Shown here piece after piece: positions 8,602-46,912 of a DNA stretch of 64,000 nucleotides. A program made the position numbers and the translations under genes. Below the pieces are notes generated by a model. That model was given only the letters and a program-made list of their open reading frames with translations, did not search any database and was not told the origin of the DNA. The stretch spans positions 2,914,001 to 2,978,000 of the forward strand of contig BCKC01000006.1 of assembly GCA_001600455.1 (NCBI GenBank), read 5' to 3'. Positions within the stretch are counted from its first letter, which is position 1. Each line of letters opens with the position of its first letter. The stretch is from Endocalyx cinctus. Lineage: Eukaryota; Ascomycota; Sordariomycetes; Amphisphaeriales; Apiosporaceae.

Positions 8602-10789
8602 GCCGTAATAACGTTGGCGTCATCTGGGTGCTGCGGATATGCTGCGAGAAGCGGAGGGTATTTGAATCGGTTTCCTCGATATCGTGCGTGTCTAAGATGT
8701 CATTATGTGAATCAAAAAGATGCAAATGGAGCAATGAAGAGAGGCCAATTAAATTTCTCTTTTTGTGGGCAGGTAATTGTTTCTCGGACCCCCCAGAAGT
8801 ATGGGCAGTATAGTGTGGTGGCAATCTAATTATTGGCTTCAGGTCTTTAAGAGAAGAGGGGCAGAGGAGAAAATTCATTATAAGGCTGTGAATTACATTT
8901 TCAGCTATTTCTACTGGGCCAATTTTGCGCCTCTGCACTGTAAGCTTGGAGATTTATTAAATGCTGAGAAGCGAAGCAATCCTCCACTATTTCTGGGTTG
9001 CTTATGGCACAACTGGGGACAGGGGGTAACCGATTTGCCACTATATTATTAGGTACACGGGTGGGTCGAAATAAATATCTAAGTCTTATCCGGCGAAAGG
9101 AAAACTCCATATTAACGTCCTCTTCGTTCCCTACCCCCATTATCAATGAGATGGTCATTCGGGGAACATCTTACAAATAATTACTGCTGCCACTCGCTCG
9201 CATTAACTGGACTTTTATTCAGTATCAACTAATTAGTCAAAGAAATATGTAAGCTTCCTGTGCTCAATCTTGTCGACTTGAAAGTAGCACTCTTCGCAGG
9301 TCCTAACATGGAAATGCACTATTAAGATGCCAGAATGAAGCAGTATAATGGTCTGAAATAGTCACGCTTGTCATGGCTCGAATAAATATATATGTTTAAC
9401 TCATCAGTTTTAATTACTGAAATTTCATGATTGGGGCCCTATTACATTTGGATATAAGCTACGGTAATTAAGTCAAAAATTTCTCAGATTAGAATAAAGT
9501 CTCAGCTGACAGAGAGTTCATATTTGACAACTTGCATATCACTGAATGTTATCACTAGACGAAACAAATGGTGATATTAATAGTTTTGAGGTTATAAGGC
9601 AAAGGGTCGTTAACGCCTAAGCTAGGAGTTAACACATTCAAGAATTGGCTCCTATTTACGTAACTAGACCAAATAGAAAAAAGAAGGAGTAGTTGTTGAT
9701 ATTCCAAGGAAGAAATCATCGAATGTGTACGTGTGCCTTTTTCGATCAGGTCATTTACATATCAAGGAAAGTGAAAGAAGAAAAAAGAGACATTAAGGAT
9801 GGGTCTAATCTGAAACTCGATTTATTCAGTAGCCTCTGTTCACGATGCCTTACTATGCCGTTTAGGCATGCAGGTATTTCTAATTTTACTATTTGTTCTA
9901 AGTGTCAGTTGCTAGTTTTTTTTTTTTTTTTTTTTTTTTTCAAAATAAAAATAAAATAAAATAATAATCTGTATATACACTCCACCATCATCTAGGATAG
10001 TCATACTAGTTTTAATAAAGAGTCATATATACATTAGTGACTTCCTCTTTTTGAGAAAAAGAAAACGAGAATGGATAACGTCGTACCCACTCAATGAGTA
10101 GAATTCTACAACAAATTCTGTTTCTGGTGTAATTAGGTAGAGAAAGTGGCAAAATATTTGACTACCATTCTTTTCCGGAAGATAGTCAATAAACAAACAG
10201 TGAATTAAGGTTGGCAATCAATAAATGGAATCACGTCCTAGTCTTCCGCGGTTGTCAGTTATGGGAAAACTTCTATTTCTGTAGGTCAAATGACTTCAAA
10301 AAGATACATTCACCTGCGGGGACAACCGCAATTCCTAGTTTATGATTGAATGAGTAGTACTGTGATTACTCAAGTAGGTACCTAACACAATGTAAATAAT
10401 CATCAAGCAAAGGTAGTTAATCAAATCTGGTATGTACTTAATAGGAATCATCCCATCCCTAACGTGGGTCAACATGAGTTAATGGCATAATACCAGAAAA
10501 AAAAAAAAAAAAAACTGATTAGTACATTCTAATTATTGTACACTGCAATGGAATAATACAATGGCGATTAAGGTTAATCACTGCGAACAATGGATTTAAT
10601 AGAATGCACCTGTATGGATAGTCTGGAAATTTTGTATAAATACATCCAAATCTCCCCTAGAACTCGAATCACTTTTCCTCTTTTCCTTTCTCAAACTAAT
10701 AAATAATCACCAACATATAACTATATCTTTCTATCCATCACATCAACTTCTACCTACCTCAAGTTTTCTACCTGCTGAGCAAAGCGAAA
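8602..10789. other. Long gene-free AT-rich stretch
   Basis: About 2.2 kb between the HET gene and the first CGH-family gene. It contains a T run at about 9917-9940, A runs at about 10498-10514, and the promoter of the following gene. Small frames at 8497-9180 have no domain and overlap on both strands; I do not call them. Confidence 0.5.
10635..10642 (+). promoter_or_regulatory. Candidate TATA box
   Basis: TATAAATA lies about 150 nt upstream of the ATG at 10790, with a pyrimidine-rich tract (CTTTTCCTCTTTTCC) between them, the usual layout of a well expressed fungal gene. Confidence 0.5.
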
Positions 10790-11694
10790 ATGTGCAACGA
10801 CATCCAGAAGGTAACCTACTCCCAATGCGGACACATGTACCGCTACTGGTGGGGTCACTCTCGCGTATGCTTGTTCTTCCCTCATCGCTCCGATGAGTTT
10901 CACATCGCGATCCAGTTCGATAAACTGCTGGACGACACTTGCCCCCAGTGCAAAGTGACTGCCCAAGCTAAGGAAGCGGGCCTGAAATTTTCCAAGGCAG
11001 AGCTCACCGCTTACATCAACAAGCGATGCAGTCGAGAAGTTTACGAGCAGTCCGAAGCTACTCGTCGCATGGCCTTGGCTACCAAGAGTCAGGTTGGCCT
11101 TCAAGACGAGAAGACCGTTGCTGGTTTGACCGAAAAGGTCAAACAGCAGATTGTGTACTACACCAATCAATTCAAGAATGATGGACGCAAGTACCTTATT
11201 CTTGAAGCCATGCTCAACCTCCCGGCTCAGTTCAACCAGGAGTACCTCACCAAGTTTCTGGGATCCCACTACGACAAGCGCAAGGGAACCAAGTACATCC
11301 GCCCGAGCCTTGAGCCTCTCATCTCCCTGGCCCATCGCAACCATCTTGAGAGAGCCTTCCGAGAGGGTTATGCTCTACGAACTCCCATGCCCTACGAGGC
11401 TCCCAAGGCCGTCGCTGGACCTTCCAAGGGCAACGACGGAGACAAGAAGCAAGCTACTGAGGTTGCTGGAACTCAGAAGAAGGCCGGTGTTCCTGCCCAT
11501 GCTGCCCCGACTGCCCCGACTGCCCCGGCTGCCGAGACTACCCAAGCTGACCCGTTTTCTACGGCTTTGAGTATTCGTGTAAGTGTTTAACCATATTCTG
11601 AAGTCTGATCGAAGGGATTTCCTTCCAAGCTAAGATTCCAAAGCTAATGAACTGTTTTCTTGAAATATAGTCTCGACCCAACCCCGGAAAGTAG
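10790..11694 (+). CDS. Hypothetical CGHxYRYWWG/CPQC protein, paralogue 1
   Basis: Exon 10790-11578 plus a tiny last exon 11671-11694 (donor GTAAGT, acceptor ATATAG) gives 270 aa. No known domain name comes to mind. The N-terminus has CGHMYRYWWG (about residues 13-22) and TCPQCK (about 52-57); two Cys, one His and a further CxxC could bind zinc. The middle is charged and helical (SEATRRMALATKSQ). The C-terminus is low-complexity Ala/Pro/Thr/Lys (APTAPTAPAAE). There is no signal peptide or membrane segment. It is clearly homologous to the gene at 13278, sharing IQK-x-T, CGHxYRYWWG, CLFF, CPQC, EATRR and HLER-x-REG. The function is unknown. Confidence 0.85.
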
Positions 11695-13277
11695 TGCAGG
11701 CTCACGTACCCATGTCGCCGGTGAGAAGTGAAGAGCTCCGACACACAACCAACTTCTTCATTCTTACCAGCCATGGCCTGCAATAGTGTATCTATAATTA
11801 GCTCACTATCCAAATTTACATACACGTCGATAACCTCCCACCACGCTTAGTATATTGCATAGTATGGAGCCTATTCGGAAATAGGCTTCCATGCAACGAG
11901 CAAGTACATGAAACCAGGTAACACCAAAATACTACCTGTACTCTAGTCACGAAAGTCATAAGTTGGTACATCGGAGGAGTCTTTATTGCAATCCTGACAA
12001 GAGGGATTAATGCAATAGAGTGGAATGAGAAATGTGCTGACTCTTCGAGTACATTCTAGATAGTCAATAAAATGCTTTAAAACCCCTTTTTTTTTGCCTT
12101 TGCTCCTGTAATGAGTGTTTGTCCAACATGTAGAAAAGGTATAGTAACTAATATTCTTTCCTATGATCAATATCTTTGCTTCAATGAACTGAAAAAGATT
12201 GATGATCAACAAATTAGGATAGTTTGCTATAGAAGATGTGACTCTTATGTGCAAAGGCTTCAAGCTCCTTCTACTTACCATTTTAGTAATTAGATCACTT
12301 GAGCATATAAAGAAGCTGTACAGTACTTCCCCATTTCATTTCTACCAGGCAGATGGGTTATGACTTGATTCTTTTTTCCTGACGCTTAGCTTACTACTAC
12401 ATGAGGTCAGTATAGATCAATATCACTGCTATCAGACGTAGAATAAATGCAAAAGAATTACATGTCACGATAAAAATTATGCTTTGATATTTCAGCTTGT
12501 AAACCTGCCTTCAATATATCTTCTAGTATAACTATGCACTGATTTCGGGTGCCTAACTTCTTACATGAGAATTGACCTAATTATCGTTGTGTTAAACGAA
12601 ATCAGGGTGTTCTACAATACTTGAGCAAAATGACCCAATGTATCAGTTATAAATTGCATGAAGTCATACCTAGTGGCATGGCTCTTACTTGTGTCTACTA
12701 CCCATATCATTTCAAGGCTTCAATTAACTATTTGAATGGAATAATCATTGATTGAGGCACTAAATCTCCAACTGCTTTGTACATGGTCGGAAATATTCCA
12801 TACTGTTCCATATTGGTATCAAATTCACTTGGGTACAAACTGCCTAACTGGAAAGTTAATTAAATAATAGGTTGTTATTACCCCTTCTAGCCCCATTGTT
12901 AATGGACAATGAATTGAATGTACTAATCAGTACCACTTGCAGTCCAACATTGGATGACTCGTCGCGAGTGAATGCATTGTGGGTAGGTAATATTAAAATC
13001 TACATTGTTCTAGTGATTTGCATTGTTCTCTTCGCACAATCACAATAGTACCAAATACCATAAATATATCCTGAATTCCCAGACCGAGATTCATTTTACA
13101 TTTCCTTCTTCATCACAATCAACTTTCAGATCAGTATCGACAGTGACTCAACTAATATAAGCCAACCAACTGAAAACTCAATACACTAATCACAAACACT
13201 AAATACATAACCACCCTACTCCTATCGATTCTACCAGTCCTCAATTATAATTCTTGTCCACTTCTCTAGACGATAAA
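11695..13277. other. Intergenic between tandem paralogues
   Basis: AT-rich spacer, with the 3' UTR of paralogue 1 and the promoter of paralogue 2 (a CATAAATA motif near 13059). The frame at 12111-12293 has a Cys pair but no wider support. Confidence 0.5.
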
Positions 13278-14141
13278 ATGTGTCAGGAAATCCAGAAAGC
13301 CACCTTCACTCGCTGCGGTCATGTCTACCGCTACTGGTGGGGACCAGCTCGATTTTGCCTATTTTTCCGTCACAAGGTCCAAGACTTCCATATCACTCAC
13401 GAGTGGGAAGTACTTGAAGACAAGGTCTGCCCCCAGTGCGAAGCTGTCCAGGGCCTCAAGGACCAGGGTGGGGCAAATATTTCCAAGCGACAGATGCGGG
13501 AGCATATCAACAAGGAGTGTGCCCTTTCTCTCTATCACGAACGCGAAGCCACCCGCCGTGCGAACCTGGCAATTCAAAGCCAGCAGAACGTGGATGCCGC
13601 CGCCATCGAAGCTCTGAACAAGAAAGTCAAGGAGCAGCTTGTCTTCTACTTGGGCAAGGTCAAGGATGATCGCGGCAAGCTGAAGCTCTTCGAAACCCTT
13701 CTCAGCCTCCCCGAGGTCTTGGACATCCAGACGCTCGTCAAGTTCTTCGGATCTCGCTACAACGGCAATCGTGATGGCAGAGTCAGATTCAACCGACCCG
13801 GACTTCAGCCCCTTCTTGACCGTGCTCGTCGCGCTCACCTCGAGCGGGTTTTGAGAGAAGGTCTCGACATGGAGAAGCCCATGGAGTACGAGCAATCCAA
13901 GGTACCGACCGCTGAGACGAAGGAAGCTGGAGAAAAGTCTGTCACTACCAACAGTACCAAGACTACTGCTCCCAGCAAGGCTGCTGTCCCTGGTAATACC
14001 ACCATGCCCGGCAATACCATCGTCCCTGCCAATACCACCGACCCTGCCAGTACCACCGTCCATGGCAAGACCGGCAAGCCTGCTAAGACTGGCAAGACTG
14101 CTAAGGCTCGGGATGCTCCCTCTGGTACTCAGAAACATTAG
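13278..14141 (+). CDS. Hypothetical CGHxYRYWWG/CPQC protein, paralogue 2
   Basis: About 287 aa from the ATG at 13278, chosen because it aligns with the start of paralogue 1 (MCQEIQK against MCNDIQK); the frame extends upstream only to a TTG. It has CGHVYRYWWG (about residues 13-22), CPQCE (about 53), EREATRRANLA, and HLERVLREG, as in paralogue 1. The tail is a degenerate repeat of PGNTT-like units followed by GKTGKPAKTGKTAK, so it is longer and more repetitive than its sister. A consensus intron (14154-14280) starts 12 nt after the stop, so the intron that falls inside the coding region of paralogue 1 is in the 3' UTR here. The function is unknown. Confidence 0.85.
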   Translation: MCQEIQKATFTRCGHVYRYWWGPARFCLFFRHKVQDFHITHEWEVLEDKVCPQCEAVQGLKDQGGANISKRQMREHINKECALSLYHEREATRRANLAIQSQQNVDAAAIEALNKKVKEQLVFYLGKVKDDRGKLKLFETLLSLPEVLDIQTLVKFFGSRYNGNRDGRVRFNRPGLQPLLDRARRAHLERVLREGLDMEKPMEYEQSKVPTAETKEAGEKSVTTNSTKTTAPSKAAVPGNTTMPGNTIVPANTTDPASTTVHGKTGKPAKTGKTAKARDAPSGTQKH

Positions 14142-31040: not shown

Positions 31041-32678
31041 TCAATCGAGTCGGCGCTTTAAGGCGTACATTTCATTTTCGTTAATATCGCGCACGACATG
31101 AAAGCATGCGATACCATCGTTTGCGACCTGCGCTACGAGCCCATATTCCCACTCAAGATACCCCTGCATAGCCTCGCGCGCATTCTCGGTTCCTTCGTAC
31201 GGGCGCTTATACACATCAATAGGGTCCGACAACCACCTACATTCTGTCTCCAGAGCACCCAAGCCAGCCGCTTGCCAAGCTTTAGTGCCTCCGCTCAGAT
31301 ATACGACTTGTCGCGAAGAGCCAGACGAGACCGCATCCCGCGCATCATCCAGATTACTAGCGGCCACTCCGCCATCGGGCGAGGTGAGCACGATAGGACC
31401 AACGCCGGGCACGGATCGAAGATCGCGAGCCAGCTCTGGCCCGGAGGTAAACCAAGCGCCGGGGATATGGCCTTTGCGATACACCGGGCTGCGGGCAAGG
31501 TCGACGATAGTCGCATCGGCGAGCTTGGCTAGATCTGTGACTTCTATGGCACCGGAGCTTGAGAGAGGCTGCCAAGACGGCGTTTCGGCTCGACGAATGA
31601 CTTCGGGCGGCGCGGAACCATTTTCTAAGACGTGAACGTCCCATCCAAGTTGGACTAGCCAGCTGGCCGTCATCAACGCCCTCACCCCGTCCGTGTCGTA
31701 CAAGACCAAGCGAGCTCCCCTTATGCCCACCCATTCGTCGGTGGCTTGAACCAGCTGACCACCAGGTGCGGATTGGAATCCTTCTGGGTGACCCTCGGCG
31801 TATTCGCTCGGGTCTCTCACATCCAGCAAGTAAAGGGTTCTGTCTTGAGACTCTTCGCCAAATTTCTTTAGCTGCTCGCTGTTGATAGTAGACACGCCGA
31901 CGTGTTCGGCCCATTTTCGAGCATATTCTTGCGACTTTTCCAGTGCTTCTTCCGACGGCTGCCCGACCTTCTGCACTGCGCCTTTATCTAGCTTCAGACC
32001 ATCTAGTGTCCATCCGATGGTACCGTTTCTGAGTGCAACGACCTTGTTCGGAATCGCCGAATTGACAAGTGTCTGAGTGCCGATGATGCTTCGCGTGCGA
32101 CCGGCGCAGTGAACGATAACAGTAGTATCAGGGTCAGGTGCCGCCTCGAAGAGCCGGTACAAGAGCTCGCCACCGGGACAGCTCTGTCCTCTCGGAAGGC
32201 TCATCGTGTGGTACTCTTCATATCGCCTGGCATCCAAAACCACCACGTTCTTATCGTTCTCTAGGAGACTACTGACCTCTCGGGCAGGTAAGGACGGCGT
32301 GTGGCGAATGGCCTCGACCAGTTCGCCGAATGCCTTGGAGGGCACGTTGACGTCTCGGAAAACCTCACCGTATCGCGCGTAGGTTGATAATCCGCCTTCG
32401 AGGATGTAGACGTCGGGATACCCCAGGGCTAGTACCCGAGCCGCGGCGCGTTCGGCGTAGCCTTCCCCGTCATCGTAAACCACTATCGGCACCGACAATC
32501 GCGGGACTAACGCCGGTAACTTGACTTCGATTTCGGATACGGGCACCGTCACGGCGAAAAAGGGGTGCGCATCTGAATATGGACCTTCCTCCCGGACGTC
32601 AAGTAGTGCGATCTCGGTCCGATTTACCCAGTACCGGCGCAACTCTTGCGCAGTCATGGATTTGATCATGGTTTTCAT
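31041..32678 (-). CDS. Four-domain rhodanese-like protein
   Basis: Single exon, about 545 aa from the ATG at 32678 (the frame reaches a TTG 12 nt upstream). Four tandem rhodanese folds are visible from repeats of LLDVRE/VLDARR/LLDVRDPSEY/IVDLAR and gain-of-strand motifs such as YILEGG, VHVLENG and VVYLSGG. Only domain 2 keeps a catalytic Cys (about 191) in VHCAGRTRS; in domain 1 (VYDDGEG), domain 3 (LYDTDGV) and domain 4 (LTSPDGG) it is replaced. Rhodaneses move sulfane sulfur from thiosulfate or persulfides to an acceptor. The inactive domains may be structural. It faces away from the methyltransferase gene, sharing a promoter region of about 760 bp. Confidence 0.9.
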   Translation of the reverse strand: MKTMIKSMTAQELRRYWVNRTEIALLDVREEGPYSDAHPFFAVTVPVSEIEVKLPALVPRLSVPIVVYDDGEGYAERAAARVLALGYPDVYILEGGLSTYARYGEVFRDVNVPSKAFGELVEAIRHTPSLPAREVSSLLENDKNVVVLDARRYEEYHTMSLPRGQSCPGGELLYRLFEAAPDPDTTVIVHCAGRTRSIIGTQTLVNSAIPNKVVALRNGTIGWTLDGLKLDKGAVQKVGQPSEEALEKSQEYARKWAEHVGVSTINSEQLKKFGEESQDRTLYLLDVRDPSEYAEGHPEGFQSAPGGQLVQATDEWVGIRGARLVLYDTDGVRALMTASWLVQLGWDVHVLENGSAPPEVIRRAETPSWQPLSSSGAIEVTDLAKLADATIVDLARSPVYRKGHIPGAWFTSGPELARDLRSVPGVGPIVLTSPDGGVAASNLDDARDAVSSGSSRQVVYLSGGTKAWQAAGLGALETECRWLSDPIDVYKRPYEGTENAREAMQGYLEWEYGLVAQVANDGIACFHVVRDINENEMYALKRRLD

Positions 32679-33434
32679 CTTGGTAATCAATCCTGGTGCG
32701 AGATATCAAGCTGTTGCAGTGCGTCAATGCAGGGACGGAGCTCCCTACGTTATGCTGCTCGATTAGGGGGCGTTGAAATACTACGTGCAATTGGCGGGGT
32801 CGAGCGAAGTAGGTATAGCGTTTTAGTAAGTATACAATAACGGAGTGTTTTGGTATACGACAATCGGAAACACTCCGAGAATGTGGCTTTAATTGCCTAT
32901 TGGTGTGCATTTGAGTGGAATCGCTGCAAGGGAGTGGGTCTCTCTAGCACGACATCATATCACGCCAATTTGGAGAGCATCTCCACAATCCGTTTCCGAA
33001 TTGGAGCTTGAGCAACCTGAGCTTTATGGTGGACCCTTGATAAGGGGTAGCTTGAGCCCACTCTGAGCCAGTTTGGAGCCAGCGTGAGCCGTGCTCTGCC
33101 CACGATATGGGTTAAGACATATGACTTTCAGAGTTTACAGGATTGGATTCACCGTTTCGTTTGAATGGATGCATTAAGAGTGTATTCTGGCACCAACAAA
33201 TCACATGATCTTACTCCTTTTCCAAGGCTATTATTAATGTCCCCGGGTGCCGGCTCCTATACCCCGCTTTTATTATCCTTGAACCAAAGCTTGCTTATTG
33301 GTATATATAGTACATACAGTTAAGAACAAGTGAGACAAATTAAAACTTTTAAGTTGCTGAGATTGACTACTTAGAGTCCTGTGAATAATTACTTCACCTC
33401 ACACATCACACAAGGTCGAAAAGTCAGGAATAAA
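32679..33434. promoter_or_regulatory. Divergent intergenic region
   Basis: Region between the rhodanese gene (leftward) and the methyltransferase gene (rightward). A TATATATAG sequence near 33301-33309 could serve the methyltransferase. Near 33009-33090 runs a stretch with repeated GAGCC and TTGGAGC(C) words. Confidence 0.45.
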
Positions 33435-34305
33435 ATGAACGACCCTCAGCCAGCAAGCGGAAAGATTTTGGCTGCGAAAGAGAATTCGGCTTTATATCTG
33501 GATGAGATTCCCCCTGAAATAGAAACTGCCCGCCGTTTACTTATTCAATACACTGGTATCGCAGTTGAGGATGTTGATGCGCACATCCATAAAATAGTGA
33601 GCTAGTTCTTTCGAGTGGTATATAATTGAGCATACTCACTGAATTTTTCTAATCGAGTAGCGCGACAAAGCATGGGATGTTTTCCCATACGGTGCTATAG
33701 GCTCGTTTAGGTTTCTAGACATGGACACGACTCTCCAAAACCCACTATTTCCTGCTGTTATAGATCGCCTTAAGCGTCCAGGGTGCTCCGAGTCATTTCT
33801 AGACGTGGGATGCTGCCTTGGCCACGTTATTCGATATCTATCCATCGAAGGCGTTCCGAGTGCGCGTCTATACGGGACCGATCTGCAACCTCAGTTTCTG
33901 GACCTCGGTTATGACCTGTTCCAGGACCGAGAAAAGCCAAGAGCTACGTTTATCGCAGCGGACATGCTCAGGGATGATGATCAGAAACTGGACGAGCTTG
34001 TGGGTAAGGTCGATATCATTCATGCTTCAGCGTTCTTCCATCTATTCGAGCGTGAAGGCCAAGTAAAGGCTGCGAAACGAATGGTCAAGCTCTTGACGCC
34101 TGGTAACCCGAATGCTATGATATTCGGACATCATGGAGGTTCAAAGATCTCAGGATGGGAGAAGTACGTACTCAATGAAGAATCTTGGGGTCATATGTGG
34201 GATGAGGTCGGAGAGGCTACAGAGACAGCTTGGAGAACAGAGACAAGTGTGGAAAGCGATGATAAAGATATCAAGGTCAGATTTGCGGTATATCGTGTCG
34301 TTTAG
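33435..34305 (+). CDS. SAM-dependent methyltransferase, AusD-like
   Basis: Exons 33435-33596 and 33661-34305 give 268 aa. The donor is GTGAGC and the acceptor GAGTAG. The ATG at 33435 precedes NDPQPASGKI. Family marks: YLDEIPPEIE, RDKAWDVFPYGAIGSFRFLD, then motif I FLDVGCCLGH (about residues 100-109), YGTDLQPQFLDLGYDLF, and IIHASAFFHLFE. This layout is that of the methyltransferases found in fungal meroterpenoid clusters (AusD, Trt5 type) and other specialised pathways, where they methylate a carboxyl or hydroxyl group. No polyketide synthase or terpene cyclase is in this window, so the substrate is open. It opens the candidate metabolite block that runs to about 48 kb. Confidence 0.9.
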
Positions 34306-34635: not shown

Positions 34636-35494
34636 TCAATTATCCATATACTCTATATAAGCATTCTCATCCGTCCATTTCTTGAGCTCGTCGAAGTTAC
34701 GACACTCGTGCAGCGCGCCATGGCCACCTAGAGTCGGGTCTGCCAGACACTGTAGGGCTTGTCGTAGCGCATCAAGACAATGAGGAATATGACTCCAAGG
34801 ATCAAGCTGCTCTTTTTCGTAGTGAAACTGATAAAGGCTTGTTCGAATAACAGCCTGGAAATGTTTTTAGCTTTCAATTATTATTATTACAAGTGAGACT
34901 ATCTCATAATGGGTGACTTACGAGACAGTGAAGCTGATGATACATTGCAACAACATATATGGCTTTTCCATCCGGAGCGTAGCCTTGGGTGAGCTGAATA
35001 TTGTTGTCTATAGCCCATTGGGGATCTACTTTGACCGCACCTCCGCCTCCTAGACAATCGATACTTGTTAGAAATCTAAAGAATTGTATATGATTTTCTT
35101 GCAAAGGAGTAGCCGTTTGTCTTACGAGGAAAAAGATCATTCCATAATGGATTCTGCTCGCTTAAATTTCCCGTTGAATACGGTGTGCTGAATAAGTAGG
35201 GAGAAAGCAAAGGAAAGTCCTTTACAGCTAGAAGTGGAACAGAGACAAGTCAGCGACTGAAACGAGCGGAGGCATGTTTCAACAATAGTTACCATGATCG
35301 TTCTTTTCGTGACGGTAAACACCGAACCAGACGGCATTGCTAATCAACAAGCCAGTTAGGCATAATGCCCACGCGGCCGTTGACCACCGCTGCCACCTAG
35401 TGCTTCTACGATAGGTTTGAAATAAACCATCATCGGTGCTAGTATCATCGGAAGATCTCCGCAAGGGCTCGTATGAAATCTCTTTAGAAGCCAT
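34636..35494 (-). CDS. UstYa-family (DUF3328) protein A
   Basis: Four exons (35494-35293, 35227-35126, 35049-34922, 34854-34636) give about 216 aa. One membrane segment at about residues 37-60 (AAWALCLTGLLISNAVWFG) follows a polar N-terminus. The family's two HxxHC motifs are intact: HQLHC (139-143) and HIPHC (166-170), the latter followed by DALRQALQC. UstYa-type proteins catalyse oxidative cyclisation or other oxidations in fungal ribosomal-peptide pathways such as ustiloxin, and some in other pathways. It lies between the AusD-like methyltransferase and the EamA transporter. Its membrane anchor would place it in the secretory pathway. Confidence 0.92.
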
Positions 35495-36412: not shown

Positions 36413-37632
36413 CTAATTAGTGAGGGGTTCCATTTGAACTACTCCTTCTTCGCTAGCGATCTGATTCTTTCGATCACTATCTAAATCTCCACCCCTAGCA
36501 AGAGTGACAAGAAACAGACTTCCAATAATAACTGCCGTGCCTAGAAGAGCCCATCCCGTAGGTGTGATGTGGAAGAAAGCACGATCTATCACAAGCACCC
36601 ATATTATCTGTGTATAGATCATGAGTGTAGCAGCTGAGGAAGAGTCCTTTGATATTCCAATTGTGAAAAGATATTCCTGCAATTATTCTCAGCCCGTAAT
36701 CTTTTTAAAGAGGAATCCAAATTTTTAAATTTCGTATACTGACCATTGCGAAGCCGCAGATACCTATAAATACTAGGCATACCCATATCACGAGACTCCC
36801 CGGCCATGTTATCTTGGGTATCATGCTAAGAGCAATTCTGCTCGTAAACACTACGCCCCATGCAAATACATTCACACTCGTTAACGGATGAGCAAGTGTA
36901 CTCATGCGACGGATGGACATCAATGCAACCTTGGGGGGGACTATGTCAGTCATTCGATATTAATGAACTAAGGAGAAAATATAGGAATGAAAAAATATAA
37001 TACTTACCAAACCTCCGCATGCTCCAAATAGGCCAAATACCAAGCCCTTTATATGTTCATTCACACTTACGGAGGTATCAGAACCACCATCATCTATGTG
37101 AAATATGTCCCTAGGCTGGGCCACAAGTGTAACTCCTGCAAAAGCACCTGCAGCGCCGACGCAGTCCACCCATTGAATCGTACTGAGTGACAAATATCTC
37201 GCGAGGACTAGTGATCCCAAAGGGCTTAGAAAACTTAAAGCTGTTGCTTCGCTGAGTGTTAAGTATATCATGGAGACTTTTTTTTAAGCAGATAAGTAGG
37301 TGATAAATTAACTATTTATTCATGTTCTCGAAATGGCATGCCAACTTACAGAAAAAGCCCGTAGCGCTACAAATCCCACCAACTGCCCTCAGAAAAATGA
37401 AGCTCCTAACTCCTGGATCTCCGAAAAGTGCCGAGGACGTCGAGGTTTCAGTACGTGAAAGAAATAACGTACACCCAAGTCCCGTAACTAGCATCCTAAC
37501 ATGCAAGATCATGAACGGATGAACGAGCTCGGGACTCGTTTCGCAGAATTTGGCCGCCGCGTTCATGGTAGCAGCGAGAATTTGCGATGCTATGACCCAT
37601 AGAGATGGATAGTGATTTTTAAGTGAGTGCAT
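36413..37632 (-). CDS. EamA/DMT-superfamily membrane transporter
   Basis: Four exons with three introns (about 37278-37340, 36930-37010, 36680-36740). The start is the ATG at 37632 (MHSLKNHYPSLW); the longer frame begins at TTG. Several hydrophobic helices occur in each exon, for example FIFLRAVGGICSATGFF, TALSFLSPLGSLVLARYL, GLVFGLFGACGGL and GWALLGTAVIIGSLFLV, giving about ten helices in the two-repeat EamA layout. Fungal members (SLC35G-like) sit in internal or plasma membranes and move unknown small molecules. Its place between two UstYa genes makes export of a pathway product or intermediate possible; that is inference. Confidence 0.85.
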
Positions 37633-39308
37633 GGTGTTTAAACTTCTGGCCGTTATTATTCGTAAAGCTCTGTGCAACAATATTGCTGATAAATTGGAAT
37701 TAGAAGAGAGTTACTATATTTAATGTGACTGAAGTTAAGTGTAGATATAGAGAAGTGTTTATCCATAACGGCGAGTCGAACCCCTTCAGGTAGACGAAAG
37801 CGGGCTCAAATAGAAGTCTGTTGGATGAGCTTACAGATCAAGACGGGATGATAGAAGCAATATTGTCCTTATCAGGTCCTTTGAGGAACATATTGGGCAA
37901 AATCTCGAAATTAAGAATCTGGGGGATCGAAAAGACCCTGTATAGTAGTCTCGTGTCAAACCGATGACTTTCGAACTTCAACGACATGGCAAGCGTGCGA
38001 TATCGGTTCAAACCAGTTATGCCATCACACAGTTCGGGTTACAGAAAAAAGCGCAACATAACATCGAGCTCGGCAAATTTAGACTACTGTGTGAGGGTTG
38101 GTTCTGGACAACTTTTTGATGATGTGCCTCAAGACAAGGTCTGGTCATAACTAACGACTAATTGGTAAGTCTATAATATCGTTAGACTACTAATATAAGT
38201 TAGCGTGAAGTAATCCTAGAGCAGAGGGGGTGTCATTAAAAAGTATACATCTCGTTAATAATGGAAACCCTGGAACCTATGAAAGCTTTTCGATAAGCTT
38301 TTCTATAAAAAAAGAAAAGCTTATACGAACCCGAAAAAGAAGTAAGATAATATCCGGGCACACCACCACCTACTCCTTACGCTATCCGCATGAATACGCA
38401 TTATTTCCTAACGTCAGCAATGCGGTACGTCTGATATACTTTGAACCCCTGCCAAATCGGGACCGAACCGAGAAAAACCCTTCCCCCGCCGCAGTAGGAC
38501 AATCTTCTAATTATTTTAACATCATTGTCACAATATTGGGGTAGAAAGGGCGAAATTGAAGTAGGTGGTTTGATATTAGAGAGATAACTCGTATTAAGTT
38601 CAATTCCTAAAATGCCAAGTGGTCTTCCTTATATTTATTGGCTGATAGCTTCGTTCAAGGATAGTGCGTAAAGACCGCCTTGGCAACTCATGTGCAGATC
38701 TTGGATATACCATCGTTACGGGTTCTGCGGGTGAAAGAAAGATGCCCTGGTCAAGTACTTGTGGGTCGCGCTAAGTAGGATTTTCCCCAGGGTATTATTC
38801 TCCGCGCTTTTATAGAGCTGGGAAAACGTATGTTAATACGGAGTACGGAGTACAAAGTGGTAGATTTCTGAATAGGTTGCATGGGAGATAACCCTGGCTT
38901 GGCTTAGGTACAGCTCCCCGGTACCACTTTTACCTCTCCTACCATAGTATCACTGGCGAGATGTGATCAGATCAAGTTGTATCAAGTGCAAACAAGAGTT
39001 CTTATCATCATTGAAATGTATACGCCCCTTGACAAGGCGAGCAGAAATCGTAAGCTTTCTTAGTGTTCCATATCTATTCATTAAAACTGAATTAGTCTCG
39101 GCTAGAGGTCATTTAGTTACTTGTCCGCACTCTTGCTTGTTCTGTCTCATACCACTGCTAAGTAAAGAGGAACAAAAAAGGAAAAAAAGAGGCTTCGAAC
39201 AAGACTATGGTTTCAATAATGGTAAGATATCATAATCATACCGATTTTCTAACGCGATGGTATTAAGAAGATGTGAATATACAGCAGCTCCGTACAAAGT
39301 ACGCGATT
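37633..39308. other. Intergenic with tRNA-like relics
   Basis: About 1.7 kb between the EamA gene and the prolyl hydroxylase gene, both reading away from it. It contains tRNA-like segments at 37763-37843 and near 37976-38036. No coding sequence is recognised; the frame at 38230-38544 has no domain. Confidence 0.5.
37763..37843 (-). pseudogene. Decayed tRNA-like element, possibly tRNA-Arg(TCT) with intron
   Basis: Minus strand carries GGGGTTCGACTC (T-loop/B box) near 37772-37784 and an anticodon-arm-like CAGACTTCTA with an apparent intron before TCTACCTGAAGG. The T stem pairs only in part and the 5' acceptor strand is not found. A dead tRNA copy is the simplest reading. Confidence 0.3.
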
Positions 39309-40247
39309 ATGCTCTTGCCAGTGAGCATGATCTTATTAAGCGTATTGCGCCTTGGACAATTCTTGTCCAAGCACGACGTCACACTTGACAGCATCTTAAA
39401 CCAGATCCTTTCTGGAAGGCTGCCTTTCAATATTCTCGTCAAAGAGCAATACGACACCACCTCTTATAGCTGTGACCAAAACTACACAATTGAGCTTCTT
39501 TCAATTGACCCACTGGTGATATATATCAACAACTTCATACGTGACGAAGAGATAGATCATATTCTAGCCCTAGGGTAAGCAATCTTCCTTTTCTGGGACT
39601 AATAACATATTTCCCATTCAACTAACGCGGAGTCTTTCAGAAAGGACATTTTTAGCACTTCCCTTGTGTTCGCAGGGTCTGATGGCTTCAATCAAGTCTT
39701 GAATCGGACTATGCGCAGCTCAGAAACCGCATTTCTCCCAAAGGATGATATAGTATGCCAATGCCTTACGAAAAGAATGCAATCCCTGCTCGGCAACGTC
39801 AAGCACTCCGAGGTCGAGGCCCTACAGATGGTCAAGTACGCAACCGGCGGCGATCATTTCAGGTCCCACACAGACTGGTTCGACATGCCAAAGCTCGACT
39901 TTCCAATCCCAGGTTCAGAGGACAAATCACCTAAGCCTAGCAATCGCCTGGGTAGCATATTCGCTTACCTCGAGGATGATTGCGAGCGTGGCGAGACCTA
40001 CTTCCCACATCTGCCGAGCGTACTCGAGTCGGCGGATGGTAGCAAGTTTGCGCTCGCGGCGGGAGACACCGGATTGCTCGTCAAACCTCGACGAGGTAAT
40101 GCCATTTTCTGGAATAACCTACATCCAAACGGAACAGGAGACGAGAGAACGTCCCACGCGGGCCTTCCAGTGGAGTCGGGCTTAAAAATTGGTCTCAACA
40201 TTTGGAGTAGATACTTTTTGGATGAAGTTATGGTTGGCGGAGACTAA
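39309..40247 (+). CDS. Prolyl 4-hydroxylase-type 2OG-Fe(II) dioxygenase
   Basis: Exons 39309-39574 and 39641-40247 give 290 aa. The longer frame starts at GTG; the first in-frame ATG is at 39309, so residues 1-15 (LLPVSMILLSVLRL) are a signal anchor. The catalytic core: SHTDWF with iron ligands His165 and Asp167, RGETYFPHL, KPRRGNAIFWNNL, distal His261 in TSHAG, and Lys271 for 2-oxoglutarate. This is the P4Hc domain. Such enzymes hydroxylate prolyl or other residues of peptides in the secretory pathway. Its position among three HxxHC proteins and a Pro-rich secreted peptide gene makes a peptide substrate an attractive guess. Confidence 0.93.
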
Positions 40248-40567: not shown

Positions 40568-41634
40568 TCAGTCTACAATGAGGAGACTGGCATTACGCCA
40601 GCTTTCAATATTCTCAAACTGTGTACGGTGTGAAGTTGCCCAAGCATGAATCCTTTCAAAGTTCCTACAAGTATGAGGAGTATCCGTATTCAGTATCACT
40701 CTAGATCCATCCAGCTTCCACTCCATCGGGGTCAAGTCTGCATGACATTGGAGTGACTGTCGTATGTGGTTTACGCAGTGACCTGGTTCAATTAGCGGTA
40801 TATTCATAAAAACATTAGCACTTCAGTGATACTAACCGATATGGTCATCTCTTGATGGATCATTTGGTCTATGAAAAACTCCCACGTAGTACTCGGGATA
40901 TAAGGCTTGACGGAGTCGGTTCTATTCGATTCTTAGTGTCAGTCTTAGTGTCTTCGAGACTATTTTACATCACAGAAAATCTCACCAGGCAGTGAAGTGA
41001 ATGGTAAACATCCAGACCACTGAAATATAAACCTGATTCTGGCCATTGAAACGTCGACTCCCCAAGGTCAACTTCCGACCGATCAAAGTCAAGATTCAAC
41101 CCTATAAAAATATTAGCAGGGACATGGCATTTTCATCAACTTTCTATACTCGCCTCCTAGAAGTTTTTCCCAAGCTTTATCGGTCGCCGGCCCAGGGGGG
41201 CCAACATATTCATGTCCTTTTTGTTCGATGAATAAGGTGCCGTCGCTATCTAACTTGACGCCGCCTGAGAAGCTCTGAACTACCAACTCAATTTCATTCC
41301 TAGCAGGTTCTAAGAGGATAAATCGTCAGTTAATCTATACCAGGGGCTTTCACGGCATCTTTTTTGTTGTTACTCCGTTGCCCCCAACTAGTGCACTGTA
41401 AAGTCTTTTATATATATACATACCGAGATCTGTGGCAAATCCGAGTTTGTAGGATGCCGTATCGATAGAATATTGATGATGTGTCAAATAAAACAGGCTC
41501 AAAAATACGAAAAAAATGTTAAATGAGATAGAAATTATGGAGAGCATTGGATGAATCTTCCAACTTCTCTTATGTTGTTGTGGTGTATATTCTGTCGTTT
41601 CCAACAAGCCTTCTTCCTCCTCACCTGAGCTCAT
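40568..41634 (-). CDS. UstYa-family (DUF3328) protein B
   Basis: Five exons (41634-41424, 41309-41154, 41101-40986, 40921-40837, 40782-40568) give 260 aa. A membrane segment (MLSIISISFNIFFVFLSLFYL) is at about residues 30-50. Both HxxHC motifs are present: HSLHC (156-160) and HIGHC (188-192), the latter assembled across intron 4 and followed by VNHIRQSLQC. The region between carries EYVGPPGPATDKAWEKLLGG, typical of the family. Frame is kept across intron 2 only if it is a GC-AG intron (GCGAGT donor at 41153, acceptor TATAG at 41102, branch-like GCTAAT). The role is as for protein A: membrane-bound oxidase/cyclase of a specialised, probably peptide, pathway. Confidence 0.9.
41102..41153 (-). 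other. Candidate GC-AG intron of UstYa B
   Basis: 52 nt starting GCGAGT and ending TATAG. No GT donor in this stretch restores the frame, while the GC donor gives LLGG-LNLDFD in frame. Confidence 0.65.
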
Positions 41635-42533: not shown

Positions 42534-43250
42534 ATGGAATACGACGACAAAATTCAAGAAGCAGAAGATATTGAGTCTGGTCACGATGTGACGGAAAGCT
42601 TCTTACAGCATGATACCGCTCTACCAATCGCGCCGAAACCACAAAGGCGCCTTTTATGGCTGCTGATTTTTGAAAATATCATTTTTGCTTTTTCCTTCCT
42701 TCTATTGTGGATGGTCTTCATCCCACCACGGACGAATCTCAACTACCAAGCCCTCACCGCGGACAACAAAATCTATCCGTCGGGGCCACTATCGTGGTCA
42801 CAGCGATTTGAAGCCTTGCCATGCGGTACAACGCCGGAAGAGGCACGAGAGAGAGGGTGCGAGTTCGACATGTTAGTCACTGCTTGGCTTCCTCCAAGAT
42901 GTATTGATCGCGAGCTCGTCGATGAGTTCATGGAGGTGGGCCAGTGGGAGTTCTACTCAAAACTCCACGCCGAGGACGAAGACAAATGGGATACCTATGA
43001 CCCGAACTTCATAGGTTCAGTCAACCATACCATCTGGACTACGAGACGATGGCACGCTACTCATTGTCTATATATGTTTAAGAAATTGACTCGCGCCCTG
43101 GTGAATGGCTGGACCACGGATGCTGAAGCTGTGTCAGAACCACACATGGAGCATTGCATGAAAGTTTTCATGGATGAAGTTTTGTTCGGCCCTAATCTTG
43201 ATCAGGACGAGATACAAACTTACTTGGAAATAATTTATCCGCCCTGTTAA
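42534..43250 (+). CDS. UstYa-related protein C with two HxxHC motifs
   Basis: Single exon, 238 aa. The N-terminus is acidic, a membrane segment spans about residues 40-62 (WLLIFENIIFAFSFLLLWMVF), and two HxxHC motifs occur at HATHC (174-178) and HMEHC (204-208), the arrangement of the UstYa family. The middle block, ALPCGTTPEEARERGCEFD and TAWLPPRCIDRELVDEF, is Cys-rich and defines a separate subfamily without the EYxG block of proteins A and B. It probably sits in the secretory membrane facing the lumen. Whether it is an active oxidase is unknown. Confidence 0.8.
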   Translation: MEYDDKIQEAEDIESGHDVTESFLQHDTALPIAPKPQRRLLWLLIFENIIFAFSFLLLWMVFIPPRTNLNYQALTADNKIYPSGPLSWSQRFEALPCGTTPEEARERGCEFDMLVTAWLPPRCIDRELVDEFMEVGQWEFYSKLHAEDEDKWDTYDPNFIGSVNHTIWTTRRWHATHCLYMFKKLTRALVNGWTTDAEAVSEPHMEHCMKVFMDEVLFGPNLDQDEIQTYLEIIYPPC

Positions 43251-43995: not shown

Positions 43996-44021
43996 GACTT
44001 TACGTGTAACCCATAAAGTCC
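43996..44021. repeat. Inverted repeat (8-bp stem)
   Basis: GGACTTTA and TAAAGTCC flank an 11-nt loop directly after the duplication. Together with the G/C-end inverted words at 43820-43841 this could be the remains of a small MITE-like element. Confidence 0.6.
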
Positions 44022-44763
44022 GTTCATCGGGTCTAGCCCCTATATGTCGATAAGAAAATTTAATATGATTGAAAGCGAACCCGACTTCCTGCACTTTTCG
44101 ATGTAGGTTGATTACATAGTTGACTTTCAACTACATTAATAATCATGGACTTACTAGGAGCAAGATACTATTTTCTTTTTCTTCTCCTTTCCTAAACAAG
44201 ACACAAAAATCGAGTTATCCCCCCCCTGCTACCCCCGTTCCCCTGTCCCACCGGTCTAATGATCTAAAGGGCGTTACGGTATGACCGCTCATCTATATCG
44301 ATTTTCTGTACCGACGACGTATTAAAGGGTATATGGCGCGTTGAAGAACGCGAAGGCAAGGGTATACAAACACTAGACCCGGAAGCGGTCAGGCATTACA
44401 TGTGCTTCCAGTAATGACAATTGGGTGGTTACTTTGTCGACCCTTGCACATCCACCTCATCACGTCCAGAGTGAGATATTTTCTGCCTAGTTGGATAGCC
44501 TTTCAATAATATGGCCGAAGGATTCTAGTTTACCTGAAACCTGCAGCACGGAAGCACGAAGATGTCGATCAAGAAGACACAGGGGCGTTGATTATCAAGC
44601 AAAGCAAGCAGGATGCGATTCCTTTATCCCATCCGGTGAACTTTCAGTTCAAGATTTACAGTTATGAGCAGATCGAATGTGATAACGAACATGTAATCCG
44701 ATTCAAGGAGGTTGAAATCCGTACTAATTAAGTACAGAGCCCGATAATCGCTGGACTGAAAAG

Positions 44764-44770
44764 TATAAAG
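44764..44770 (+). promoter_or_regulatory. Candidate TATA box of the micro-exon gene
   Basis: TATAAAG about 130 nt upstream of the ATG at 44899, followed by a pyrimidine-rich CTCTCGCCTTTC stretch. Confidence 0.45.
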
Positions 44771-44898
44771 CCACTCTCGCCTTTCAAAAAACTAAGAGAC
44801 ATATCAGATCATATTTCAAGGCATTCAGTCATTCGGAATAATTAATCGTAACTATTTTCAAGAATTGTCTCATATTCCAAGCACCAACCATCAACACC

Positions 44899-45732
44899 AT
44901 GCAGTTCCAATCTTTTACGATCTTTTTCCTGGCAACTCTTGCCACGGCGGCCGTTATCGCCCCAGTCCCCGACGGATGCGCTTCAGGCGATGGTACTATC
45001 GTCCAAAGAGTTGCTGTCCCTATTGATGCTAGAGTATGACTTCCTATCTATGAGCCACTCGTTTATCTCAGGAATCTAGGCTAACCTTATCAATGATAGA
45101 ACCCTTCCGTGAGCCATACTTCGCACTCAGTAAAATAAAAATAACTACGTTACAGTTTACTAACATACATAATTTACCTACGAATTAGCCAGTAAGTATC
45201 ACTTCGTATACATACATTGCAGCGTATTTAATAAGAACCAATGCTAATTTGATATCCAACTATAGCAAGTGAGTGATTCTTGCTTTAGAACATCCCTATC
45301 TCACAAGAAGTTACTAACAAGCTTGAATTGAAGGGCGTGAGTCGTCCCATAGCTCAGTTAACAAGATGACCAATTAGCTACTAATACAGATACGCTAATA
45401 CTATTAATGATAGCCGGTAAGTCGATTTCATCTTTTCTTGGAATGATTAATAACTCTATGGACCGGGAAATACTGACATTTACTTAGAGCGTAAGTAAAA
45501 CCTTTGGAAAGATAATACATGAACTACTTAATGCAGAATAGCTACTAATAGAGTTACGTCGAGCCAGTGCGTGAGTAGTAGCCAGAATATTCATTGAAAT
45601 GCTACGAATAGCAGTACTGATTTTGATTCTAGCCTGTTACCGGAGGTCCTGTTCCCCAGGTGCCCGTGAGTACCTCTTTCTGTATTTTTTTTTATCCTCA
45701 CGCTTACACAGGTGTTTCAGGACGTGGAATAG
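44899..45732 (+). CDS. Secreted peptide encoded by serial 3-nt micro-exons
   Basis: Predicted exons: 44899-45033, 45100-45108, six 3-nt exons at 45189, 45266, 45334, 45414, 45488 and 45568, then 45633-45665 and 45712-45732; 71 aa. Exon 1 encodes a clear signal peptide (MQFQSFTIFFLATLATAAV) and a short mature start containing one Cys. The micro-exons encode NPS, then P, Q, G, P, S and C one codon each, then a Pro/Gly/Val-rich segment and VFQDVE before TAG. Each internal exon sits tightly between an AG and a GTAAGT or GTGAG(T/C); every exon length is a multiple of three; the nine introns are 46-80 nt and most have CTAAC/CTAAT/CTGAC-like branch sites. No homologue comes to mind. Alternatives: an abandoned gene, or a gene ending at the TGA of exon 1. 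Confidence 0.6.
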
Positions 45733-46912
45733 AAGAAAGGATATCGTGGAGTTCTAGATTCAGGGTCCATAAACACGCGTTGGTTGTCTACATGGAGAGA
45801 ATAGTCTTGGCCGGGTTTTTATCCTCTAGTTAAGGTTTCCCTAGCCCTGGTGCAAATGCAAAGGCTTTATGGCAATTGAATTTTTATCTTTGAAGAGTGT
45901 GAATCGTAGAGTAGAAGAGAGTTTCTTGCTTAATGTGCTCTCGTGGAGTATCCTAGAATTTTGTAACACCGTTATTAGCGATAACTTGATGTTAAAAGGG
46001 AAATTAAAGCTTGTGGGTTGACTATGACACGCTCCTTAGTAGTTGAATCCATAGATGGATGTTAAAATGCTGGACGTGACAGTATAGCTTACCTGGTTAA
46101 CTAAAATAAATGGAGGAGATATTTTTACGGAATTACATGAGAGGCCAAGGAACGAAGAAAAAGGTGAACTCAATGCGCTCTCCTTATTAATATTTAAGTG
46201 TTGCTCTAATTTTTCGAAGCAATATGACGACCTTGAGGCACAACTTACATTCGACTACCTTGGACAGAGGAATATCCGCAAAATAAAGCGTAATCACAAT
46301 TTCTCTCGAGAGTGAATGAGTTTCTGGTTTTAACTCGCACCTAAAGCCAGCTTTTTACATACATAAAAACTTGGTGCGCTATTCAATACCCCTTTAACTG
46401 CCGACTTGGCACCGTTCTGGAGAGCATAGTTTAAAACGGTTTAGTGTCCTAACGGCGTTAAGTCCGCCTAGTATGTCAGTATGTGTACAGAGTATATGTG
46501 GGCACCTAGAGGCCGCTGTCGGTGGGTCATAATAGCCCTGAGATGCGAAGCCTATAGGGCCTAACGGACTGCTAACTATCTGCCTAACCTGCTAACGTAC
46601 ATCGATTATAGGTACTGATTATACTGATACTAACAGATAAGTTCCAGCAAATCACAGAGGCTCATGCTTGTGTGGAAGCAACTTTTCCGTGTGCTTTTTT
46701 GAGGTCGGGACATTCCATACAACTCCACGTTTGTGATCATGGGTCGATGACGACCTTCTCACAAATTCCAATATTCAATTAGCAATCTTGAATTCAAGTC
46801 CCGAGCGCGATATAAATATTTGATATGCAAATTAAATCTTGGCGACATATCTGATTTAAATTATCCCTGTGTGTATTCATTTCAACAGATTGATTTTCCT
46901 AAAGCGCTTGCC
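45733..46912. other. Intergenic
   Basis: Between the micro-exon gene and the AflR-type regulator. No gene recognised. TATAAATA at 46811-46818 probably serves the regulator. Confidence 0.5.
46811..46818 (+). promoter_or_regulatory. Candidate TATA box
   Basis: TATAAATA about 100 nt upstream of the regulator's ATG at 46913. Confidence 0.5.

Follow-up and report, generated by a model that had tools for sequence, protein, structure and literature searches.

Can a fungal gene be put together from a run of exons of one codon each, and what would such a gene make in the company of several UstYa-type genes? The question is raised by a locus on the + strand of a 64,000-nt stretch of Endocalyx cinctus DNA, which was analysed as a whole and is referred to here as the window. 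An earlier note on this DNA had described a 9-nt exon and six 3-nt exons behind a signal-peptide exon, exon lengths divisible by three, introns of 46-80 nt and a branch-like motif in most introns. The ladder was present exactly at 44899-45732 (+ strand), and all of these features, including every coordinate and codon, were recovered in a model of 10 coding exons. Exon 1 (44899-45033, 135 nt; start-codon context AACACCATGC) encodes a signal-peptide-like and leader-like region, MQFQSFTIFFLATLATAAVIAPVPDGCASGDGTIVQRVAVPIDAR, whose last residue is Arg45, the likeness to a signal peptide being that of a crude hydropathy scan only. It is followed by micro-exon 2 (45100-45108, 9 nt; AACCCTTCC, Asn-Pro-Ser; donor GTGAGC) and by six exons of 3 nt: micro-exon 3 (45189-45191; CCA, Pro; donor GTAAGT), 4 (45266-45268; CAA, Gln; donor GTGAGT), 5 (45334-45336; GGC, Gly; donor GTGAGT), 6 (45414-45416; CCG, Pro; donor GTAAGT), 7 (45488-45490; AGC, Ser; donor GTAAGT) and 8 (45568-45570; TGC, Cys; donor GTGAGT). 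Exon 9 (45633-45665, 33 nt; PVTGGPVPQVP; donor GTGAGT) and the coding part of exon 10 (45712-45732, 21 nt; VFQDVE and stop) complete the model, all on the + strand. The joined coding sequence has 216 nt and no internal stop, and its 71-aa peptide reads MQFQSFTIFFLATLATAAVIAPVPDGCASGDGTIVQRVAVPIDAR-NPS-P-Q-G-P-S-C-PVTGGPVPQVP-VFQDVE. All exon lengths are multiples of three, an outcome with P = 0.0005 for the seven short exons at 1/3 each.

The nine introns, from first to last, measured 66, 80, 74, 65, 77, 71, 77, 62 and 46 nt, and all were phase 0. A CTRAY branch-like motif was found in eight of the nine, the remaining one having CTCAC, and the GT[AG][AT]G sites within 45001-45740 (n = 9) were each a donor of the model. 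When introns were retained singly, a stop came into frame for 7/9, introns 3 and 9 being without one. Introns 2-8 (45109-45632), each located after a 9- or 3-nt micro-exon, all had lengths of 2 modulo 3, a regularity spotted post hoc.

Donors of the form GTRAGT were present at 7/9 introns of the ladder gene versus 6/19 control introns (one-sided Fisher p = 0.029), and the 3-nt exons taken alone had perfect GTRAGT donors in 6/6 cases versus the same 6/19 (p = 0.005). The 19 control introns were hand-modelled in eight genes of the window: UstYa gene A (n = 3), UstYa gene B (n = 4), a methyltransferase (n = 1), a prolyl-4-hydroxylase-like gene (n = 2) and a transporter (n = 3), as well as an aldo-keto reductase (n = 1), a P450 (n = 4) and a Zn-cluster factor (n = 1) that were read by eye only; one of the four P450 introns lies at an incomplete 5' part, and a fifth, ambiguous one near 4120 was excluded. 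The contrast narrowed as control genes were added, from 1/10 in the first genes modelled to 6/19 in the eight. The ladder was chosen for its good donors, and their quality, which is not independent of that choice, counts as weak evidence; independent evidence comes from the constant 3-nt spacing and from the frame.

The claim that such a series of donors is unlikely to arise by chance was borne out by shuffling. In the window, AG-NNN-GTRAGY occurred eight times on the + strand, six of these inside the ladder and linked at intron distance, and twice on the - strand. Dinucleotide shuffles of 45034-45740 (n = 2000) gave a longest chain of 0 in 1895 cases and of 1 in 105, against an observed chain of six, so that no shuffle of the region linked two such steps and a chance origin was excluded. 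In shuffles of the whole window (n = 100, both strands) the longest chain was 1 in 98 and 2 in two. GTRAGY donors within 45034-45740 numbered eight, with a shuffle mean of 0.72 and a maximum of 5. When the spacer in AG-N(k)-GTRAGT was varied from k = 0 to 12 within the gene, six matches were obtained at k = 3, one each at k = 1, 6 and 7, and none at the other values; elsewhere in the window the 3-nt spacer had four matches on both strands and did not stand out.

The ladder also appeared to be single in its genome. Two successive 3-nt exons with GTRAGT donors were searched for in the 44.76-Mb assembly with three strict patterns, which do not cover weaker donors, other exon lengths or introns above 76 nt after GTAAGT. 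With GTAAGT as first donor and introns of 46-76 nt, the ladder gene was recovered together with four matches that overlap one another in a single simple repeat of GTAA; with GTGAGT as first donor there were no matches at intron lengths of 46-76 nt and two at 53-83 nt, both in the ladder gene. Apart from the simple repeat, these three patterns thus revealed no second ladder. At 30 UstYa loci of the same genome, which has 48 UstYa matches (1.5 kb flanks), the longest chain of 3-nt exons with relaxed donors was 2, as was the longest chain of 3-15 nt exons. The ladder region had no second match anywhere in the genome, and exon 1 had no paralogue there. No homologue of the 71-aa peptide was found among 5.8 billion proteins in a search that requires three shared 5-residue words, a silence that says little, since a gene of this kind may well be overlooked by automatic annotation.

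Two ways in which the ladder might have been multiplied were considered. Tandem duplication of an exon-intron unit was rejected, as introns 5 and 7 were the only one of the 36 pairs to stand out in similarity (z = 6.3; the rest z <= 2.6) and only short repeats were seen. These were three two-copy repeats among the introns, including one of 18/23 nt between introns 1 and 5, at their 3' ends, and one of 18/20 nt between introns 5 and 7. Membership in an introner or sister-intron family was likewise rejected: the introns were mostly dissimilar and the only genome match of the region was itself, which gives no sign of a recent burst from a single intron family. No RNA family (Rfam) was detected within 44000-46800 at E values up to 1, and the ladder transcript showed no unusual RNA structure (folding z-score 0.26).

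How could such a transcript be processed? With only 3 nt between an acceptor and the donor that follows, the footprint of the spliceosome leaves little room for both sites to be bound simultaneously. One-intron-at-a-time removal is for this reason the likely route: the ordinary U2 spliceosome would remove the nine short introns by intron definition, and each step would lengthen the exon by one codon and bring its end up against the next GTRAGT donor. Both the splicing and its order are inferred here from the arrangement of sites in the DNA. That fungal splicing can handle even smaller exons is indicated by the 1-nt exon of Fusarium CYP621A, which according to PMC12940212 is backed by 18 public reads. 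That gene resembles the ladder in being from an ascomycete and in having an extremely small exon between short introns, but as described there it has a single tiny exon in a conserved enzyme motif, whereas the ladder is a run.

With all exon lengths divisible by three, skipping would keep the frame, and missed steps would yield in-frame variants, a peptide mixture being then a natural by-product or possibly the purpose. If the seven small exons are skippable, 128 combinations and 120 distinct segments are obtained, or 240 if the 33-nt exon can be skipped too. We regard only tentatively, and with more doubt than belief, the idea that the ladder is a built-in peptide library, in which variable skipping would supply up to 120 segments to tolerant UstYa and hydroxylase enzymes. 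A reading that seems nearly balanced, although it still falls somewhat short of what we would accept, is that the same gene is spliced constitutively to one peptide and that the ladder records passive, repeated intron gain, in a segment that evolves fast, with no useful diversity. The perfect GTRAGT donors at all six 3-nt exons would favour full inclusion, the 1-nt exon of Fusarium is reported to be spliced accurately (PMC12940212), and intron propagation by stwintrons is described for Xylariaceae in PMC12403724. On the other side, the codon-sized microexons of truffle NACHT-ANK genes are said in PMC3689799 to be alternatively spliced, and the largely dissimilar introns, with the 5-7 pair as the only exception and no second match in the genome, speak against passive gain.

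The surroundings of the ladder gene bear on what its peptide is for. Its start lies 1.65 kb downstream of UstYa-like gene C (42534-43250, + strand), in the same direction. Gene C is a single exon of 238 aa with the motifs HATHC and HMEHC and falls below the Pfam cut-off (PF11807, 17.3 of 25 bits). UstYa gene B (40568-41634, - strand; 5 exons; HSLHC and HIGHC) and UstYa gene A (34636-35494, - strand; 4 exons; HQLHC and HIPHC) are above the cut-off, with E values of 4.5e-40 and 1.9e-18, respectively. The same neighbourhood holds a prolyl-4-hydroxylase-like 2OG-Fe(II) oxygenase (39207-40247, + strand; 3 exons), which matched solved prolyl 4-hydroxylases at E = 1e-12, a SAM-dependent methyltransferase (33435-34305, + strand; 2 exons) and an EamA-type transporter (36413-37632, - strand; 4 exons). 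Apart from gene C, these gene models were made by hand; the second intron modelled for UstYa gene B (41102-41153, - strand) has a GC-AG border with the donor GCGAGT. Farther off in the window, a HET-domain (heterokaryon incompatibility) protein is encoded at 6439-8100 (- strand) and a protein whose single open frame contains four rhodanese-like stretches at 31041-32705 (- strand). The neighbouring proteins at 10721-11590 and 13251-14141 (both + strand) have similar starts, MCNDIQKVTYSQCGH and MCQEIQKATFTRCGH, matched no Pfam family at E <= 0.001 and are apparently duplicates.

Assignment of gene C to the UstYa type was based on its HxxHC(x)nHxxHC motif, the His and Cys residues of which were invariant in an alignment of 21 sequences (the query and 20 of 41 hits); 12 of these 21 aligned members matched PF11807 at E <= 0.01. 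The double HxxHC is given in PMC12435403 as the copper site of DUF3328 enzymes. An AlphaFold model of moderate confidence (mean pLDDT 70.5) placed an N-terminal helix at residues 37-62 and the two HxxHC motifs on two C-terminal helices; the predicted structure had no PDB match at E <= 0.001, and no relatives of gene C were found among viral contigs.

Database searches with gene C gave 41 hits, the best named ones being from Xylaria sp. FL0064 (81%), Xylaria multiplex (79%) and Nemania sp. FL0031 (78%), and those with gene B gave 74, headed by Ustulina deusta and X. multiplex; an affinity with Xylariaceae is suggested by these homologues. Ten of the 41 gene C hits seem to share a contig with a gene B hit, nine of the ten under the same organism name. 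Gene numbers were adjacent in four of these cases (X. multiplex g9467/g9468, Nemania 526057/526058, Clarireedia 004193/004192 and Phialemonium 7289/7288), and for the other six a shared contig is only indicated, one of the contigs being of 4.6 Mb. The B-C pair therefore appears to have been kept together in several lineages, which belong to different orders. As only 12/21 members match PF11807 yet 10/41 seem to share a contig with a canonical UstYa hit, the gene C subfamily is perhaps undercounted in genome surveys. The E. cinctus genome had 48 UstYa (PF11807) matches above the cut-off, counted exon by exon; several of them lie close together, which suggests many UstYa clusters. Because of this number, closeness to UstYa genes alone is moderate evidence for a functional link.

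The peptide itself was examined for the marks of a precursor. Proline accounts for 7 of the 20 residues of NPSPQGPSCPVTGGPVPQVP; the 71 residues include neither KR nor RR, no Lys at all and no Tyr, no core repeat was seen by eye, and no Pfam family was matched at E <= 0.1. No tandem-repeat array able to encode a repeat precursor was present within 28-56 kb of the window, and a conventional repeat precursor was accordingly set aside as a candidate for that interval. A crude scan of the same 28-56 kb for small ORFs with signal-like starts listed 21 ATGs, ten of them with A at -3; among these ten, the one at 44899 was the only one between 33.4 and 45.8 kb to avoid overlap with modelled genes. The repeat and small-ORF scans thus offered no better precursor candidate in the cluster.

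Taken with the neighbouring genes, these features make it probable, in our judgement, that the ladder gene encodes the precursor peptide of a UstYa-type RiPP cluster and that its micro-exon segment is spliced stepwise. Exon 1 would supply the signal peptide and the leader, whose final Arg is a plausible leader/core border; the 9-nt exon and the six 3-nt exons would add N-P-S-P-Q-G-P-S-C, and a proline-rich tail would follow. Once secreted, the proline-rich peptide would be a fitting substrate of the enzymes encoded nearby and may be modified by the prolyl-hydroxylase-like protein and by the three UstYa-type proteins, enzymes of the copper type. Secretion, modification and the RiPP role are inferred, like the skipping considered above. 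The peptide lacks repeats, dibasic Kex2 sites and tyrosine and so is not a canonical dikaritin precursor; we consider it fairly likely that the gene acts in the manner of a precursor of the UstYa RiPP type, without classing it as a dikaritin. The earlier note had guessed at either a RiPP precursor or an effector. The first guess gains from the cluster, with its three UstYa-type genes, prolyl-4-hydroxylase-like oxygenase, methyltransferase and transporter, and the second found no separate support.

That the gene encodes a small secreted effector or signalling peptide which lies near the UstYa genes and is not their substrate seems unlikely to us. The missing marks of classical dikaritins (repeat, Kex2 dibasic site and Tyr) would agree with such a peptide, and with 48 UstYa matches in the genome, counted exon by exon, closeness can arise by chance; against this, the upstream B-C pair seems to have stayed together in other fungi, no better precursor candidate for the cluster came out of the scans, and the proline-rich tail is well matched to the prolyl-hydroxylase-like enzyme. 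A third alternative leaves the codons out of the message altogether: the 599 nt between exons 1 and 9 would be one intron removed by recursive splicing, with the AG-NNN-GT units serving only as aids to its stepwise removal, and the mature mRNA would join 45033 to 45633. Such a join keeps the reading frame open over 62 aa, so that an open frame does not in itself prove inclusion of the codons, and a donor close behind an acceptor resembles a recursive site. Classical recursive sites, however, have no exon between AG and GT, whereas the spacer here is 3 nt six times, 9 nt once and never 0, and the removal of each intron leaves its codon behind, which makes this explanation quite improbable. Hardly credible is a decayed or silent gene with the splice sites as leftovers, which would agree with the failure to find a peptide homologue, since the nine donors, the acceptors and the frame are all intact and random decay would have broken some of them.

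The precursor reading can be set beside several known systems. The belief expressed in the earlier note, that no fungal case of single-codon exons was known, does not hold: codon-sized microexons of truffle NACHT-ANK genes are in print. For the nank genes of Tuber melanosporum, PMC3689799, citing Iotti et al. 2012, reports alternative splicing of tens of codon-sized microexons. As far as this citation goes, they share with the ladder gene a fungal origin and many codon-sized exons per gene, but encode large STAND receptor-type proteins, whereas the ladder gene encodes a probably secreted 71-aa peptide in a UstYa cluster; NACHT and ankyrin domains were absent from that peptide at E <= 0.1. The architecture of the ladder thus has a fungal precedent in another gene class.

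The parallel drawn earlier with the micro-exon genes (MEGs) of schistosomes stood for architecture but not for intron length nor, as far as a search insensitive to short divergent proteins can tell, for kinship. As worded in PMC7653826, a micro-exon gene has at least 7 exons, at least half of them below 70 nt and divisible by three, in a run of at least 4. The ladder gene has 10 exons, 9/10 of them micro and in a run of 9, the last being counted on its coding part (8/10 micro and a run of 8 without it), and so falls within this operational definition. With the MEGs of schistosomes and tapeworms it has in common a probably secreted short peptide, a run of micro-exons divisible by three and exon lengths that would make skipping frame-neutral. 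For flatworm MEGs, PMC10526429 gives introns of 100 to almost 5000 bp and 15 bp for most exons, in contrast to introns of 46-80 nt and six exons of 3 nt in the ladder gene. Unlike the flatworm genes, the ladder gene lies in a biosynthetic cluster, and no sequence relation was found in a search that is insensitive to short divergent proteins.

With the dikaritin precursors (ustiloxin, phomopsin and asperipin) the ladder gene shares a start that is signal-peptide-like by hydropathy and UstYa/DUF3328 neighbours, of which genes A and B were recognized above the Pfam cut-off and gene C by its motif. Those precursors have tandem core repeats, Kex2 dibasic sites and Tyr; the ladder gene is without these and has ten exons. 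A methyltransferase is found in ustiloxin-type clusters, as it is near the ladder gene. UstYa clusters of lichens for which no precursor with conserved repeats could be identified are described in PMC12048977.

Very small exons are described for other genes as well: the 3-bp exon 2 of Ganoderma lucidum gpd (PMC8379801), exons down to 6 bp in P450 genes of Phanerochaete (PMC1184071), a very small exon in Xlr2 of Trichoderma virens (PMC11121469), one among these micro-exons being said to act as a switch, and three consecutive microexons of 3, 18 and 22 bp in human RPS24 (PMC12686416). The three fungal examples, as their sources present them, are small exons of enzyme or regulator genes, whereas the ladder is a run of single codons in a putative peptide precursor. 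The stwintrons of Hypoxylaceae and Xylariaceae are likewise neighbouring short introns removed in consecutive steps (PMC12403724). In the [D1,2] type described there, one intron splits the donor of another, whereas three exonic bases separate acceptor and donor in the ladder; since every micro-exon places 3 or 9 nt between its AG and its donor, an assignment to [D1,2] stwintrons was rejected. In searches of open-licence literature, no fungal gene for a secreted peptide or a RiPP precursor was found to be built in this way.

A RiPP precursor made of micro-exons would be new. If spliced as read here, the gene would offer a compact test case of how the spliceosome copes with an acceptor and a donor 3 nt apart, and would join the micro-exon-gene architecture of parasitic worms and truffle receptor genes to the biosynthesis of ribosomal natural products. 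If, in addition, the ladder serves as a peptide library, one locus would give rise to a family of modified peptides, and such genes might be the missing precursors of UstYa clusters for which none has been found. That the precursors of these clusters can go missing is indicated by PMC12048977, and a survey of Hypoxylaceae and Xylaria hypoxylon, according to PMC8403587, found RiPP clusters only via similarity to known precursors. A gene in ten pieces with single-codon exons would escape gene finders, and the search for chains of AG-NNN-GTRAGT would be a new way to look for the precursors of UstYa clusters.
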